Shown piece by piece: positions 40,423 to 46,308 of a DNA stretch of 54,219 nucleotides. Every line of letters starts with the position of its first letter. The stretch's first letter is position 1. The translations under genes and the position numbers were made by a program. The DNA lies in assembly GCA_017633985.1 (NCBI GenBank), contig JAGBOF010000018.1, positions 1 through 54,219 on the forward strand, written 5' to 3'. The stretch comes from Bacteroidales bacterium. GTDB taxonomy: Bacteria > Bacteroidota > Bacteroidia > Bacteroidales > P3. The notes under the pieces are model-generated. The model was given only the letters and a program-made list of their open reading frames with translations, did not search any database and had not been told where the DNA came from.

Positions 40423-41448
40423 TTAGTATTTAAGTTCTTTAAACTTATTGTAAACTTGCTTGGCAATCAGTTCATATCCTTTTTTGTTGAAATGAACTTT
40501 GTCTGCCAGTAAAGAAGGCGGGACTTGACCGTGATTAACAGAGTCTTTGTCTGTTTGCGTAGGAGTAATGCCTGCATCGTTTAATCCGTTATTTACCATA
40601 TACAAGCGGAGATTAAGATAATGTTTGCCGAAAACGGAGGAAAGCGAATCTTCCATGTCTTTTAATCTGTCAACAGTCGGTAGAACTTTATTTACAGCGT
40701 GAAAACTGATAATAATATATTTATCACATTTACTGTAAGCAACCATAGCTTGCAGTTGCTTGAGCAAATCGGCAACATCACTAAAACCTCCGTTCTGTCC
40801 GATAAAGAAAATATTGCAATAAGTGTTTTTAAGATTATTCATAGCATATGTAGTGATTACCGAGCCTGCTTTCAATGTGTCTGTATTGTTGTTATCGTTC
40901 AATCTGTTTATGTAATAATTGTATTCGAATTGATATTCTCCGTTTATACGCCAATAACAACTTTCCGAACTTAATGTATACGGGATATTGTTTATGTAAC
41001 ATTCGTTTATAAATGCAGAAGATTTCTCTTTTTTATAACCGCGTTGCAATAAAGGTTGTACAACGGAGTTGTTATAGGATGAAATAAATGCCGGAATGTC
41101 ATTATTGCCGATAAACATTTTGTATTTACGTTTATCTTTCGGAAGAATGATTACATCGTGTGCCAGTTTCATAGGATAAGCACCTTGACGTGCCATAATT
41201 GTCAGGGTATTCTCGCCTCCGACACCTGCGTTAATGACATTGTAATCTTTTGACAGCATCTTTTGTAGTTTATAAGGGTAACAGAATTCTCCGCCGTGTA
41301 AGAAATAAGAAATTTTTGATTTGAGAGAATTTCCATCATGCGGGGCTGTGAGCGAATCGCCCCAACAAACGACATTTTTCTTTTCCGTTTTGTCGCTGCA
41401 AGATGCAAACAGTAATAATACTGTTGCGAATAAAATTGTTTTCTTCAT
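40423..41448 (-). CDS. SGNH/GDSL-type hydrolase lipoprotein
   Basis: This 341-residue protein has a lipoprotein signal (KKTILFATVLLLFASC, lipobox FASC at residue 17). The SGNH blocks follow: VVCWGDSLTAP (catalytic Ser), INAGVGGENT (Gly), FFIGQNGGFSD (Asn) and DKVHFNKKGYELIA (Asp and His). A 120-residue insert between the Gly and Asn blocks is rich in Tyr and Asn. Such enzymes remove acyl groups from polysaccharides, peptidoglycan or lipids; which one is unknown. It sits in the envelope. It is divergent from namZ and lies just downstream of structured RNA A, whose transcript could continue into it. A TAGTTTTTG-like -7 element close to the gene may serve as a separate promoter. Confidence 0.82.
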   Translation of the reverse strand: MKKTILFATVLLLFASCSDKTEKKNVVCWGDSLTAPHDGNSLKSKISYFLHGGEFCYPYKLQKMLSKDYNVINAGVGGENTLTIMARQGAYPMKLAHDVIILPKDKRKYKMFIGNNDIPAFISSYNNSVVQPLLQRGYKKEKSSAFINECYINNIPYTLSSESCYWRINGEYQFEYNYYINRLNDNNNTDTLKAGSVITTYAMNNLKNTYCNIFFIGQNGGFSDVADLLKQLQAMVAYSKCDKYIIISFHAVNKVLPTVDRLKDMEDSLSSVFGKHYLNLRLYMVNNGLNDAGITPTQTDKDSVNHGQVPPSLLADKVHFNKKGYELIAKQVYNKFKELKY

Positions 41449-41500
41449 AGTTTTTACATTTGTCTATTGCAAAAACTATATCTCACACATGAAATGAGGA

Positions 41501-41737
41501 TAAATAAAAAAGGTGTAAACTTTTCCATTCACGTTCAGGGAAAGCCTAGGAACGAAACCCCGTCACAACTTTTAGAAGAGTTTATCACCATAAGGCGAAG
41601 CTTGTTGTGACATAATAAAAAAATCCTGACTTTGTCCTGAACCTATCATTTCATTTTGTCAAAATCAGTTTCCTAGGCTTATCTTGAACGTGAAATAATA
41701 GATATTGCGTTATTTTAAGGCACTATTGCCGATTAGT
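41501..41737 (-). ncRNA. Candidate structured RNA, paralogue A of a three-member family
   Basis: On the minus strand the RNA would begin near CAATAGTG and end in AAAAGTTTACACCTTTTTT. Two stacked long-range stems close it: TTCACGTTCA (41685-41694) with TGAACGTGAA (41528-41537), and AAGCCTAGGAA (41670-41680) with TTCCTAGGCTT (41542-41552). An inner 8-bp stem GTCACAAC/GTTGTGAC lies at 41604-41611 and 41562-41569. RNA B at 43348-43582 has the same head, tail and stem positions with different paired bases, which supports a conserved fold. It could be an independent small RNA of about 235 nt (shape similar to 6S RNA) or a leader of the SGNH gene. Confidence 0.65.
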
Positions 41738-41743
41738 TTTTTG

Positions 41744-41773
41744 CAAAAATACGACAATTTTCCGAATTAACAA
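41744..41773 (-). promoter_or_regulatory. Promoter of structured RNA A
   Basis: On the minus strand TTG (41771-41773), 19 bases, then TATTTTTG (41744-41751) is a full match to the Bacteroidota pattern. It lies about 300 bases upstream of the SGNH start, so it would transcribe the hairpin RNA first. Confidence 0.7.
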
Positions 41774-41876
41774 GTTCTTAAGCAGTAATATTTGTAGTTT
41801 GACGGCAGGAGGAATATTATAATACCGTTATCTTAAAAAATTTGCAGTTTATGGCAAAAACTTAATAAAAACATTA

Positions 41877-41884
41877 TAAATTTG
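41877..41884 (+). promoter_or_regulatory. -7 promoter element of the NamZ-like gene
   Basis: TAAATTTG lies 27 bases before the ATG at 41911. Confidence 0.55.
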
Positions 41885-41910
41885 CAGTCTGATAAATATT
41901 TATTTAATCC

Positions 41911-43104
41911 ATGAAAAAAGTATTTTTCTTGTTAGTTGCGGTTTTGATCGGCGGATTTGCTTCGGCTCAATTGGTAAAAGGCGGCGAAAGATTCGCAGAA
42001 TATTTGCCTATGTTGCAAAATAAACGTGTCGGAATAGTTTGTAACCATACCTCCGTGGTAAACGGAGTACATTTGGCAGATACTCTTTTAGCCCAAGGCG
42101 TGAATATCAAAATTCTTTTCACTCCCGAACACGGCCTTAAGGGAACGCAGGAAGCAGGAAAGTTAATTAACGGTATCAGCTACTATAAAGACAGCATCAA
42201 AATCATATCCCTTTACGGCAAAAACAAGAAACCGACTCCGCAACAGATGAATGAAACGGATATTATATTGTATGATTTGCAGGATGTGGGATGTAGGTTT
42301 TATACCTACATATCTACACTCGAGTATGTGATGCAAGCATGCATTGAAACAGGTAAACAGCTTATTGTGTTGGATCGTCCGAATCCTAATAACTTCGTTG
42401 CGGGACCTGTTTTAAGGAATGATTGCAAAAGTTTCGTAGGTATGCAAAATATTCCTATATGTTACGGACTTACCGTCGGAGAATACGCCAAAATGTTATT
42501 GGATATCGGACTTGGGACATTGAATTCAGAGGTTGATACGGCAAATAAAAAGAATATTCTTACTGTTATAGAAATGCAAAACTATAAACGCGACAGTATT
42601 TACGCCCTTGACGTCTATCCTTCGCCCAATTTGCAGAGTATGCAGGCGATAAAGAATTATCCGACGCTTTGTTTATTTGAAGGAACGCCTATATCAGTCG
42701 GCAGAGGTACCGACAGACCGTTTGAAATAATAGGTTTCCCAGGTTACAATAGGGAGAAAATAAATCCGATATCCAATATCCTAAATCCTAAATCGGAGAT
42801 AATCTCATTTACTCCCGTATCAATCAAAGGAGTTGCCGAGAATCCGCCCTTTAAAGACAAATTGTGCAGGGGAGAGGTGATAACGATTCATTCGGATGCG
42901 ATAGAATTGGAGTATATCATTGATATGTATAATGCCTATCCGCAAAAGGACGGTTTCTTTACGCGTATGTTTGATTTGCTTACGGGAGATAAGACAGTCA
43001 AAGAGCAAATCATTGCAGGTAAAAGTGCGCAAGAAATAAGAAAGTCGTGGGAAAAAGACCTTGAAGCATACGAAAAGACCCGTCAAAAGTACCTTATTTA
43101 TTAA
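41911..43104 (+). CDS. namZ: Exo-beta-N-acetylmuramidase NamZ-like (DUF1343, GH171)
   Basis: This 397-residue protein has a signal peptide (MKKVFFLLVAVLIGGFASAQ) and the features of DUF1343: LQNKRVGIVCNHTSVVNGVH, FTPEHGLKGTQEAGK, ILYDLQDVGCRFYTYISTLE, IVLDRPNPNNFVAGPV, and FEGTPISVGRGTDRPFEIIG. Characterised members (B. subtilis NamZ and family GH171) remove N-acetylmuramic acid from peptidoglycan chain ends, so it should act in the periplasm in wall turnover or recycling. A segment near residue 285 (INPISNILNPKSEI, DNA 42762-42795) is encoded by the GATATCCAATATCC micro-repeat and looks like a small in-frame insertion. It lies between two structured RNAs. Confidence 0.88.
   Translation: MKKVFFLLVAVLIGGFASAQLVKGGERFAEYLPMLQNKRVGIVCNHTSVVNGVHLADTLLAQGVNIKILFTPEHGLKGTQEAGKLINGISYYKDSIKIISLYGKNKKPTPQQMNETDIILYDLQDVGCRFYTYISTLEYVMQACIETGKQLIVLDRPNPNNFVAGPVLRNDCKSFVGMQNIPICYGLTVGEYAKMLLDIGLGTLNSEVDTANKKNILTVIEMQNYKRDSIYALDVYPSPNLQSMQAIKNYPTLCLFEGTPISVGRGTDRPFEIIGFPGYNREKINPISNILNPKSEIISFTPVSIKGVAENPPFKDKLCRGEVITIHSDAIELEYIIDMYNAYPQKDGFFTRMFDLLTGDKTVKEQIIAGKSAQEIRKSWEKDLEAYEKTRQKYLIY
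42762..42795. repeat. GATATCCAATATCC micro-repeat inserted in frame in namZ
   Basis: The DNA reads AATCCGATATCCAATATCC, then CTAAATCC twice and a closing AATCGG. It shares the CCAATATCC unit and the encoded NPISNI peptide with the inserts in addB. Confidence 0.55.
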
Positions 43105-43140
43105 AAAAGCAGTATTGAAAAACAGGTAAATAGTTTGGGT

Positions 43141-43246
43141 AAATTAATCTGCGAGATTAATAAATTATTCTGCGATGTCAGTAAATTAATCTGCGTGATT
43201 AATTTTTTAAAGCGGCGTATTAATTTTTTAAAACGCCGTTATTTTT
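43141..43246. repeat. AACGCCGTT family repeat after namZ
   Basis: Two TTAATCTGCGNGATTAA palindromes precede GCGGCGTATTAATTTTTTAA and AAAACGCCGTTATTTTT. The T-runs after the last stem would serve as a terminator for namZ. Confidence 0.65.
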
Positions 43247-43333
43247 CCGCCGCGTTATAACGCAGCAAAATAAAGCTGAATAAAATTTTGATATTTTTTC
43301 GTATCCTATTGCCACCGTTATAAAAAACTTTTG

Positions 43334-43341
43334 TATTTTTG
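43334..43341 (+). promoter_or_regulatory. -7 promoter element of structured RNA B
   Basis: TATTTTTG. A TTG lies 22 bases upstream (43309-43311), slightly further than usual. Transcription would begin near 43348. Confidence 0.55.
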
Positions 43342-43347
43342 CATTGC

Positions 43348-43582
43348 AATAGTGTATTAAGACTTGATGCTTAACTATTATTTCACATTCAAATTAAGAA
43401 CTCGGGACTCTTTGTTTGAATTTCATAAGAAATAATAATTTTCGGACAAGTTGTCGGTATGAACGGCAATATTATTATAATAGTATTGGTTTTGCGCCTG
43501 TTTTGGTGTGAACTTTCTAAAATAATATGGGTGTTCATCCGAGTTCTTAGCCCGAATGTGATAGCAAAGTTTACATCTTTTT
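43348..43582 (+). ncRNA. Candidate structured RNA, paralogue B of a three-member family
   Basis: The head CAATAGTGTATTAA and the later CTATTATTTCACATTCAA match RNA A (41501-41737) closely, as does the tail AAAGTTTACATCTTTTT. The stems are TCACATTC (43383-43390) with GAATGTGA (43554-43561), and AAGAACTCGG (43396-43405) with CCGAGTTCTT (43539-43548). Compared with RNA A, the paired bases changed together on both sides, for example G-C to A-T in the first stem and most of the second stem. This compensatory change is strong evidence for a conserved RNA. It lies about 215 bases before the TonB receptor gene and may be independent or part of its leader. Confidence 0.68.
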
Positions 43583-43797
43583 GTTTGCTTTCGCTTCTTA
43601 TGGAAAGAAATCGTAGTTAGAATTTAGTTTTCAGCATATTGCATATAAATATAATGTGTAGAGGTTGTTGTAAAAAGTGATAAAATTCAAAAAAATCCGC
43701 ATGCGGTTGTAACTTTTTACCCCTTTGAGGTGTTATATTTATATAGGGACAATATTTTTTAATAACTAACATTAACAAATTAAAAAAACAAAGAGTA
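43583..43797. other. Leader region of the TonB receptor gene
   Basis: No gene is seen. A hairpin formed by GTAAAAAGT (about 43670) and ACTTTTTAC (about 43712) encloses the palindrome CCGCATGCGG. An AT-rich leader (AACATTAACAAATTAAAAAA) precedes the start codon. No clear TAnnTTTG is visible, so the gene may be read from the RNA B promoter. Confidence 0.45.
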
Positions 43798-46308
43798 ATG
43801 AAGCGATTCAGTTTAATGATTGTTGCACTTTTGATTTGTAACACACTGTTTGCCCAAAGCGTAAACATAAAAGGAGCGGTTAAAGACGCTCAAACAAACG
43901 ATAAACTGCCGTACGCCAACTGCATTTTGCAGTATAAAACCGATACTGTGGGTATTTATAAAGGTATGGTTACCGATGATGACGGCAGCTTTACGTTTAA
44001 GAAAATTAGAAAGCGTGATTTGATTCTTAAAATATCGTTTGTGGGCTATAAGACGTATAGGCAGGAGATTAATTCATCGCAATTTGACGGCGGAAAGGAT
44101 ATTGATTTGGGTGAAATAGCATTGGAATTGGATGAAACGTTGGATGAAGTAAAAATTGTGGCTGAACGTAAGCGTATAGTTACCGAAGGCGACAAGCTAA
44201 CGATGAATGTGGACGACGGAATGGCGAATATGGTTACCAATGCGTTCGAACTGTTGAAACTTGTGCCTGGTGTTATGATTGATAACTCGGAAAATATCAC
44301 CCTTAACGGACAAAGCGGCGTTTCTTTCCAGTATAATGGCAGGGATATGAAACTTGATTGGTCTGCGGTGAAGGATATGTTAAAGGGAATGACACCAGAA
44401 ATGATTGATTCGTACGAAGTGCTCAAGAATCCGGGAGTTAAATACGATGCCGAAGGGACTGCGGGCATTATAAACATAAAAACCAAGAAGAATCAGCAAT
44501 ACGGTATCAACGGTTCGGCATCCGTGGTCGGTAATTACAGGGATGATCTCACTTATCACTACAATCCGTCCGTCAGATTGAATTATGTGAATGATAAATG
44601 GATAATTTCGGGCGGTGTCGGCGGCACTGACAATTATTATGGCGATCCTTACGGGGCGGATTCGTCACACCGTTACACTTGGATAGTACAGGATACTGCG
44701 CTTTTCCGCAATATTGACGACAAATGGCAGAGTGACACCAAGGGAGTGGATTTTAATTTCTCTGCATCGTATTCTTTAGACAGCGTTTCCACGATTGGTT
44801 TTTACAGTTACTACGGTAATTATCACCAACCGACATCTGAAGGCAAGCATTTCACGTTTATGTCGCACAATCCTGCATATTACACAACCGATTCGTTATA
44901 TAACCAAACGGGAAAGGTGAAAACACAGAACAATCTTGCATATCTCGGGTTTAACTATGTGAAAAAACTTGACACAATGGACAGTAAATTTTCTATGGAC
45001 TTGGATTACAACAACCGTTCTAACATTGGTGAGCGTCAAACGATACTTGATTATTATAATGTGTTGCCTGACGGCAGTAATACATTATCCCGCAGCACCG
45101 ATAACAAAAGAAAAACTGATGACAGGCAACAAAATCTATCCCTTCGGGCAGATTACTACAAGCCTTTTACGAAAGATTTGATTTTTGAAGCGGGTGCAAA
45201 AACTGCGTTCGCATTTAACGACAGGGATTACAAGTCTGAAGTGTTGCAGGAGGCGGAATACGTCAACAATGTTATGGAAACGAACCGTTTTAAGTACCAT
45301 GAAAACATCAATTCCTTATATGCATCCGTTACGGATAAGTTTTTCTCCTCTAAACTGTCCGTTCGCTTGGGCGTAAGGCTGGAACAAACCAATACAAAGG
45401 GAGCGCAGGTCGTTAATGACACAACTATCAAGACGCATTACTTGAATCTTTTCCCTAATCTAAAACTTGGTTGGAAGTTTAAGGAGGATAACGAAATTTC
45501 TTTGAATTATAACTACCGTATATCGCGGCCTTATCCAAGTAATTTGGACCCTTTTATAGTTAAAACGTCGGAATACTCTTACGAAACGGGTAATCCCGAA
45601 ATCAAACCGCAATATTCCCACCTTATCTCCCTGTCTCATTCCTATAAGTATATGCTTTTCACGTCCGTTTACTATTATTACTCCACCGATAACATACGTA
45701 ATCTGTCTACTCCGCTGAATGACTCTTACGGATTTGCATATAATCCGCTTGCAGTAATATCCCGTCCTATTAATATGGGAAAAAGCCACAGCATAAACGG
45801 AAATGTAAGTTTTGATAAGCAACTTTTTGACATTTGGAACATAAATCTGTCGCTTACTTCTTATTATCTTTATGCCGATATGGCACTTGACGGCAATCAA
45901 ACTTCACTTGACACTTGGGGATATAATTTTAATTTATACACTTCGCTAAATCTTCCGAATAAATGGCGGTTTTCCCTTTATTATGGGTGTGGTTCTGCAG
46001 GCCAATATGGAATTACCAAATATAACGGGTGGCAATGGTTGAGTTTTGACGCAGGTAAATCTTTCTTTGAGGACAAACTGAACGTTGATTTCTCAATCGG
46101 TTGGTCTGTTGGCAAGAAAGATTACAGCAAGACAGAATATCTTAATAATATAACCGAGGATTGGTCGCGTGCAACACCGCCTTATGTGTCTTTAACACTG
46201 CGTTATAGGTTCGGAAAGCATTATGACAATAAGCAAGTGCAGAAACGTCAACTTGAAAGCTTTGATGAGCGGACAGGAGGGGCTGATAAGGGTGGCGGAA
46301 GGCGTTAA
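43798..46308 (+). CDS. TonB-dependent receptor of the outer-membrane beta-barrel (OMP_b-brl_3-like) group
   Basis: This 836-residue protein has a signal peptide (FSLMIVALLICNTLFAQ) and a carboxypeptidase-regulatory-like domain (NIKGAVKDAQTNDKLPYANC to about residue 105). A plug-like domain follows with NAFELLKLVPGVMID, ITLNGQSGVSFQYNGRDMKL and DSYEVLKNPGVKYDAEGTAG, then IINIKTKKN. A long barrel carries many Tyr/Asn strands, NYNYRISRPYPSNLDPF and LTLRYRFGK near the end. A short Lys/Gly-rich tail follows the last strand. This group is often found near regulatory or envelope-stress loci rather than SusD genes. The ligand is unknown. The start is fixed by the signal peptide. Confidence 0.88.
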   Translation: MKRFSLMIVALLICNTLFAQSVNIKGAVKDAQTNDKLPYANCILQYKTDTVGIYKGMVTDDDGSFTFKKIRKRDLILKISFVGYKTYRQEINSSQFDGGKDIDLGEIALELDETLDEVKIVAERKRIVTEGDKLTMNVDDGMANMVTNAFELLKLVPGVMIDNSENITLNGQSGVSFQYNGRDMKLDWSAVKDMLKGMTPEMIDSYEVLKNPGVKYDAEGTAGIINIKTKKNQQYGINGSASVVGNYRDDLTYHYNPSVRLNYVNDKWIISGGVGGTDNYYGDPYGADSSHRYTWIVQDTALFRNIDDKWQSDTKGVDFNFSASYSLDSVSTIGFYSYYGNYHQPTSEGKHFTFMSHNPAYYTTDSLYNQTGKVKTQNNLAYLGFNYVKKLDTMDSKFSMDLDYNNRSNIGERQTILDYYNVLPDGSNTLSRSTDNKRKTDDRQQNLSLRADYYKPFTKDLIFEAGAKTAFAFNDRDYKSEVLQEAEYVNNVMETNRFKYHENINSLYASVTDKFFSSKLSVRLGVRLEQTNTKGAQVVNDTTIKTHYLNLFPNLKLGWKFKEDNEISLNYNYRISRPYPSNLDPFIVKTSEYSYETGNPEIKPQYSHLISLSHSYKYMLFTSVYYYYSTDNIRNLSTPLNDSYGFAYNPLAVISRPINMGKSHSINGNVSFDKQLFDIWNINLSLTSYYLYADMALDGNQTSLDTWGYNFNLYTSLNLPNKWRFSLYYGCGSAGQYGITKYNGWQWLSFDAGKSFFEDKLNVDFSIGWSVGKKDYSKTEYLNNITEDWSRATPPYVSLTLRYRFGKHYDNKQVQKRQLESFDERTGGADKGGGRR

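Follow-up and report, generated by a model that had tools for sequence, protein, structure and literature searches.

The 54,219-nucleotide (nt) stretch of DNA analysed here, called the window, is contig 17 (JAGBOF010000018.1) of a Bacteroidales bacterium whose genome (GCA_017633985.1) comprises 2.39 Mb in 36 contigs. It holds two copies of a structured RNA, named C17m (41506-41731, minus strand) and C17p (43344-43583, plus strand), each followed by a gene on its own strand. A first-pass annotation had proposed two paralogous RNAs here, and both sequences were found where it had placed them. Judging from sequence analysis of these and related copies, we consider it rather likely that the RNA is a cis-acting 5' leader, attenuator- or riboswitch-like, which may gate transcription and translation of restriction-modification (R-M) and envelope or surface genes in Bacteroidales. 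The parts of both copies are listed below, with segment pairings written as b:c and scores taken from covariance model R2.

41744..41751, minus: -7 promoter box TATTTTTG of the minus-strand leader (sequence match)
41506..41731, minus: leader copy C17m, from hairpin P0 to the U-tract (alignment; R2 score 177.1 bits)
41719..41730, minus: P0, 5' hairpin with ATAG loop (copy alignment; statistics in the text)
41690..41710, minus: head segment H of C17m, overlapping the P1 5' strand and complementary to D and to the PK1 segment (pairing tests)
41686..41695, minus: P1 5' strand TTTCACGTTC of C17m (covariation)
41529..41536, minus: P1 3' strand GAACGTGA of C17m (covariation)
41670..41680, minus: P2 5' strand AAGCCTAGGAA of C17m (covariation)
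41542..41552, minus: P2 3' strand TTCCTAGGCTT of C17m (covariation)
41643..41652, minus: PK1 segment GAAATGATAG of C17m, complementary to H (swap test, 0 of 2000 swaps equal)
41604..41611, minus: P4 5' strand of C17m (swap test)
41562..41569, minus: P4 3' strand of C17m (swap test)
41594..41601, minus: segment a of C17m, pairing weakly with b in this copy (pairing tests)
41573..41589, minus: segments b and b' of C17m, b having a or c as partner (pairing tests)
41512..41527, minus: segments c' and c of C17m, c complementary to b (pairing tests)
41506..41511, minus: U-tract immediately 3' of c in C17m (read from the sequence)
41466..41479, minus: segment D of C17m, also the 5' arm of the start-codon hairpin P6 (P6 of 11 bp; H:D -6.8 kcal/mol)
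41449..41460, minus: segment E of C17m, the 3' arm of P6, adjoining the start codon (hairpin test)
40423..41448, minus: gene under C17m, a lipoprotein-like protein of 341 amino acids with a marginal GDSL lipase match (Pfam)
43334..43341, plus: -7 promoter box TATTTTTG of the plus-strand leader (sequence match)
43344..43583, plus: leader copy C17p, from P0 to the U-tract (alignment; R2 score 159.8 bits)
43371..43386, plus: head segment H of C17p (H:D pairing test)
43381..43390, plus: P1 5' strand TTTCACATTC of C17p (covariation)
43554..43561, plus: P1 3' strand GAATGTGA of C17p (covariation)
43396..43405, plus: P2 5' strand AAGAACTCGG of C17p (covariation)
43539..43548, plus: P2 3' strand CCGAGTTCTT of C17p (covariation)
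43429..43438, plus: PK1 segment GAAATAATAA of C17p (swap test)
43490..43498, plus: segment a of C17p (pairing tests)
43505..43519, plus: segments b and b' of C17p (pairing tests)
43562..43577, plus: segments c' and c of C17p (read from the sequence; pairing tests)
43578..43583, plus: U-tract of C17p (read from the sequence)
43607..43619, plus: segment D (class B) GAAATCGTAGTTA of C17p, complementary to H (H:D -13.1 kcal/mol)
43798..46308, plus: gene under C17p, an outer-membrane beta-barrel protein of 836 amino acids (OMP_b-brl_3; Pfam)

When C17m and C17p were aligned, they had in common the head CAATAGTG, the block CTATTATTTCAC and the tail AAAGTTTACA.CTTTT, and the letters of P1 and P2 differed with the pairing kept, just as the first-pass annotation had described for its three shared blocks and two stems. 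The promoters it had assigned to both RNAs correspond to the two -7 boxes listed above. Both copies folded better than their shuffled sequences (200 each; z of -4.81 and -6.07), none of which equalled the native fold. The long interrupted rod that had been proposed corresponds to the rod-like look in folding and omits the pseudoknots and the alternative partners. Beyond what had been noticed, the source genome holds six more strong copies, eight in total, and the conserved unit continues downstream in the direction of the following gene's start codon.

Model R1 was built from seven of these eight copies, R2 from 36 full copies and R3 from 75 copies, which are those analysed here; other matches of the family and order searches, some of them strong, lie outside this set. 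The partial copy G003:C39 (196 nt) was excluded from the alignments, and L116 is the same place as L097. The leader measures about 215-255 nt, plus the tail up to the start codon. Over 36 copies, P0, P1, P2, b:c and PK1 together had 89.0% of their cells paired, compared with 77.9% in shuffles and no more than 46.8% with slid partners, and both sides had changed in 181 cells, against a shuffled mean of 52.8 (none of 500 shuffles as high). P0 taken singly had 81.8% of its cells paired and three of its five pairs changed on both sides. RNAalifold recovered P1 and P2 unaided, 13 of the 16 pairs being doubly changed. A scan of all column pairs in the 75 copies, with no structure supplied, placed P1 and P2 at ranks 1-9 and b:c at rank 10; among the 70 pairs listed, those of P0, a:b, PX and P6 came later, interspersed with many column pairs that form no base pair. 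The nine best-covarying pairs therefore fall in the very stems singled out by the first-pass annotation, which had suggested checking covariation in homologues, and its view that RNA structure is under selection with compensatory changes is strongly supported by the folds and by covariation over 36 and 75 copies. Each of P4, PX (UUCAGG-like with CCUGAA-like), PK1 and b'c' (UCUA with UAGA, short and weak at -1.7 to -2.0 kcal/mol) outdid all 2000 between-copy swaps, in the 75 copies as well as in the 39 outside R2. Many G-U pairs were preserved in the helices of the leader.

Segment b (GGUGUGAACUU-like) has two possible partners, either a, just upstream, or c, at the 3' end adjoining the U-tract. 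In the 39 copies outside R2, 373 of 428 cells of b:c were paired (87.1%; swapped mean 83.4%, best swap 86.7%), as were 289 of 312 cells of a:b (92.6%; swapped 87.4%, best 89.7%), and none of 2000 swaps equalled the native value for either helix. The alignment was not biased to b:c, because the structure of R2 contained a:b and not b:c. The helix b'c' extends b:c and is not part of a:b. At least five of the eight bases after c were T in 68 of the 75 copies.

The second segment with two partners, D, lies beyond the U-tract. Copies with a called gap to the gene of up to 70 nt were assigned to class A; in class B, D is nearer the U-tract. If homologous genes and intergenic repeats are set aside, what class A copies share within a genome begins at the promoter and ends at about the start codon. 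An AT-rich intergenic repeat (AATTAATCTGCG-like units) lies upstream of C17p, at about 43141-43211 of the window; 70 bases of it are 90% alike beside the contig 30 copy, with weaker matches elsewhere, and it constitutes a separate family of dispersed intergenic repeats. Class A copies possess the hairpin P6, whose 3' arm, E, ends beside the AUG. A test restricted to stems that end no more than 8 nt from the AUG covered 70 of the 75 copies (50 of class A and 20 of class B, with 60 shuffles each); at the 0.05 level, P6 outperformed its shuffles in 36 of the 50 from class A versus 2 of the 20 from class B. The letters of the stem vary with the pairing kept, the usual form being GUGAUUGAUAG/CUAUCAAUCAC, with GGGAAGUGGUU/AACCACUUUCC in L132 and GCGGA.AAUAG/CUAUUAUCCGC in L149. 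An upstream open reading frame (ORF) starting from the AUG present in many P6 loops was considered and rejected, as it was missing in several copies and its frames differed between L124 and L126. In G11_C260, L126 and L148 the true start codon probably lies downstream of the one called.

D consists of the 5' arm and the loop of P6 and is complementary to the head H (GCAUUA[GA]CUAUUA-like); D and the arms of P6 are conserved in sequence as well as in pairing. In 48 of the 50 class A copies (two with called gaps below 35 nt were excluded, and a wrong head was taken for L149), the mean energy of H:D was -10.72 kcal/mol, compared with -5.22 when D was shuffled; 47 of 48 beat the shuffle mean, and none of 5000 swaps between copies equalled the native value, the best reaching -10.71. 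The 20 class B copies gave -12.6 kcal/mol native, -9.5 swapped and -5.9 shuffled, again with no equal in 5000 swaps. In copy G10_C5 the P6 stem was not found (7 bp, equalled by 67% of shuffles), and H:D was kept with other letters. The closer fit of H:D within copies than across them suggests that it acts in cis. In constrained folding with pseudoknots omitted, the downstream pairing of D was preferred over H:D in 38 of 43 class A leaders, and D:E was better than H:D by a median of 4.2 kcal/mol over all 43.

The position of the leader relative to genes was highly regular. The next gene was on the same strand in all 73 of the 75 copies that had room for one: in each of the 36 full copies forming the first set, where the upstream neighbours lay on either strand, and in 37 of 39 of the second set, the other two being L114 and L115, where a gene would not fit. 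The ORF script skipped the methylases of L144 and L150; a separate reading of the DNA showed them as open frames of 378 and 347 codons beginning 55 and 45 nt downstream. The called gap from leader to gene was 40-130 nt in 65 of 73 copies. The promoter box motif TANNTTTG occurred within 100 nt upstream in 57 of the 75 copies, compared with a mean of 5.3 and a maximum of 16 after mononucleotide shuffling.

R-M genes of unrelated types made up 44 of the 73 following genes. EcoRI-type methylases accounted for 28 (10 through Pfam, 16 through a blastp cluster, L144 and L150 through the protein start), C5 methylases for four (two tested) and Mrr or ResIII helicase genes for four (three tested); the others were two MmeI, one weakly MmeI-like, two D12, one HsdR, one Eco57I and one N6_N4 methylase. 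Another 19 had non-R-M leads and 10 had no Pfam family. The former comprised four acyltransferases (two tested), three GDSL proteins (two marginal), one hexapeptide transferase, three sulfatase-domain membrane proteins (one with a sub-threshold EptA match), two BspA-like leucine-rich repeat proteins, one outer-membrane barrel, one Sel1 protein, one subtilase, one HAD protein preceded by a short ORF, and two Cys-rich peptides; most of the non-R-M followers look envelope-related or family-less. The two peptides, of 102 and 105 amino acids (L028:883-1188, minus strand, and L079:2408-2722, plus strand), are alike at the start, and that of L028 has a tail of Cys-Xaa-Xaa-Xaa repeats and a likeness, below the cut-off, to TIGR04117 radical-SAM target proteins. 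The first-pass annotation had placed its RNAs near envelope genes; this holds in the source genome, where none of the eight copies precedes a recognised R-M gene, but across the order most of the copies examined precede R-M genes.

Downstream genes were read at 16 loci, and later genes were tested in six R-M operons. The leader precedes the methylase, and an endonuclease-type gene came later in five of the six: GmrSD/HNH in L156 and L168, HaeIII in L165, HinP1I in L166, and an HNH gene together with a second methylase in L167; the later gene tested in L159 had no family. In L168 the methylase is interrupted, and two short frames intervene before the GmrSD/HNH gene. An operon of an EcoRI-type methylase and a downstream GmrSD/HNH-like gene recurred in L156, L157, L160, L161, L168 and L170, the second gene being called by Pfam in L156 and L168 and by likeness of the protein start in the other four. 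In the reverse direction, a protein-level search for EcoRI-type methylases gave 37 matches in 35 of 295 genomes, 30 of them with loci. Ten of these 30 had a leader at E below 1e-4, always directly upstream and in the sense direction; six were already in R3, three more had appeared in the order search, and one (L190, E of 1.8e-5) was new. Weak R3 matches lie directly upstream of EcoRI-type methylase genes at L182:1232-1423 (plus strand, 13.6 bits) and L190:2460-2652 (minus strand, 31.5 bits), which are possible distant members of the family.

R1 detected the leader in 10 of 41 genomes, the source genome counted. With R2, it was found in 57 of 190 genomes of the same family (4 of 12 genera) and in 22 of 393 genomes of an order-wide sample (12 of 207 genera, ten families), and R3 had matches in the source genome alone among 395 genomes of the class and 395 of the phylum. 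The counts from these family, order, class and phylum searches are lower bounds because few candidates per genome were scored; the order, class and phylum searches recovered five of the eight source-genome copies. Copy number varied from 0 to 10 per genome within one genus (G001-G013), suggesting fast gain and loss. Among seven pattern matches in genome contigs, L104 was the only one that matched R2 well. Nine viral contigs matched two of three short patterns (the third matched none), and an association with viruses was rejected, the best R2 match having an E of 0.79; one query each against plasmid and phage records gave no leader match.

The analysis directly supported the conservation and covariation of the leader, its position, its association with genes and the presence of both partners for the switching segments, and the mutually exclusive conserved helices a:b with b:c and H:D with D:E (D:E in class A only) are present in the leaders. 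A same-strand gene in 73 of 73 copies, together with pairing of H beyond the U-tract, fits a cis-acting mRNA leader. Such a leader would be a switch made of segments that each have two mutually exclusive partners, provided that the helices compete in the cell. Formation of b:c next to the U-tract would stop transcription and a:b would let the polymerase through; H could pair with the PK1 loop segment inside the fold or with D past the U-tract; and in class A the D:E hairpin would block the AUG, with H:D freeing the start codon. The conserved P2-P4 core may act as the sensor. The default state is probably OFF, since D:E was predicted to fold better than H:D by the median given above.

Several observations weigh against this proposal. 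As just two of 20 class B start-codon hairpins were significant, translational gating would not be family-wide, and in C17m itself P6 was equalled by 15% of shuffles and H:D was weak (-6.8 kcal/mol). At about 75 nt, b and c lie far apart for the arms of an intrinsic terminator, and C residues often interrupt the U-tract. Changes in PK1 were mostly one-sided in the 36 copies, the margins over the best swaps were thin for class A H:D and for b:c, and the swap tests are inflated because the copies are related. In addition, 18 of 75 copies lacked TANNTTTG in the 100 nt upstream, and at E of 1e-4 the leader was absent from 20 of the 30 loci with EcoRI-type methylases, indicating that it is not obligatory.

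A leader controlled by a dedicated or host trans-acting protein, which would bind the core or the start-codon hairpin and repress or antiterminate, as UpxY-type and ribosomal-protein leaders exemplify, is the strongest of the alternatives, although we think it improbable. The conservation of D and the P6 arms in sequence besides pairing would suit it, and the patchy presence within one genus would suit a patchy partner. However, the following genes differ so widely that autoregulation by one shared product is unlikely, and the occurrence of copies in ten families suggests a factor in all hosts or no factor at all. Still somewhat less credible are independent, self-terminated small RNAs, 6S-like or otherwise trans-acting, that happen to lie upstream of genes: the promoter box in 57 of 75 copies, the 3' U-tract, the rod-like fold and the multiple copies per genome are what they would have, whereas the constant same-strand gene, the pairing of H with D across the U-tract, better within than between copies, and a window Rfam scan that returned tRNAs and nothing else argue against them. 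An element acting as DNA (a recombination site, a protein-binding site or the end of a mobile cassette), with inverted repeats that merely resemble RNA structure, is very improbable, given the many G-U pairs kept, the fixed strand and position, the promoter box upstream of most copies and the lack of matches to plasmid or phage records in one query each, despite the several copies, the patchy distribution and the association with R-M genes, whose transfer between genomes is known; a mobile cassette was rejected because the shared sequence ends near the start codon and does not flank the gene.

Returning to the cis-acting leader, its occurrence before EcoRI-type, C5, MmeI, Eco57I, D12, Mrr-helicase and HsdR-type genes, and before genes for acyltransferases and for membrane proteins of the GDSL-like and sulfatase-domain kinds, suggests that in Bacteroidales the genes of immunity and of the envelope are under shared control at the RNA level. 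The methylase starts of L124 and L139, from different families, differed at one of the 50 residues shown, and the same operon types with near-identical methylase starts across families fit co-transfer and a self-contained sensor, or a factor present in every host. We expect the leader to be a self-contained sensor of a common host signal, because it accompanies like R-M genes in distant hosts. It has long been asked how a mobile R-M operon can enter a new, unmethylated host without killing it, and the answers to date have mainly been protein regulators and antisense RNAs. More tentatively, and with the balance tilting against it, the leader may represent a new class of sensory leader, either a riboswitch or a switch responding to physiological state. 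As a common, transferable module for immunity and envelope genes, it would keep surface-modifying genes and R-M operons that begin with the methylase in the OFF state until the two coupled switches are flipped by a signal, perhaps an attacking phage or entry into a new host. The core of the leader is a candidate new ligand-binding RNA.

The leader family is apparently undescribed, and an earlier unnamed prediction of it is possible. The parts of the literature consulted, to whose scope the 2017 list of 224 motifs and supplementary candidate-RNA lists did not belong, held no description of it; a table in PMC2864571 names Bacteroidales-1 (RF01693), and passages in PMC2864571 and PMC8040213 name other Bacteroidetes motifs. 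The Rfam 15 scan of the window found two tRNAs and no leader match. A permissive scan of four loci with copies gave seven rows far below gathering scores, with no 6S or Bacteroidales-1 among them; L13_leader, HDV-F-prausnitzii and the other weak rows were taken as chance. The kinship with 6S or Bacteroidales-1 raised by the first-pass annotation thus found no backing, as neither 6S RNA (RF00013), 6S-flavo (RF01685) nor Bacteroidales-1 gave a covariance-model match, their presence in Rfam 15 being assumed. 6S RNA and 6S-flavo resemble the leader in length and rod-like look, but the leader differs in its eight copies in one genome, its position before a same-strand gene and its lack of an Rfam match; Bacteroidales-1 is likewise a structured Bacteroidales RNA, but its model did not match the leader.

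Among regulatory systems, the UpxY-antiterminated capsule leaders of Bacteroides also gate surface genes and, compared by description only, are alike as Bacteroidales surface-gene leaders, whereas most genes behind the present leader are R-M genes. The control of R-M systems by C proteins and antisense RNAs has the same target but differs in that here a structured leader sits before the methylase gene. Attenuators and riboswitch leaders switch three strands between terminator and antiterminator. The present leader would work like one of these, its status as a riboswitch hinging on a ligand: it shares with them the 5' position, the opposition of a:b to b:c with the U-tract behind c and, for many copies, a hairpin at the start codon that has an anti-sequestering partner. 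It differs from them in that its terminator-like helix is pseudoknotted and spans about 75 nt, in having no Rfam match, and in that one leader is common to unrelated R-M operon types and envelope genes.

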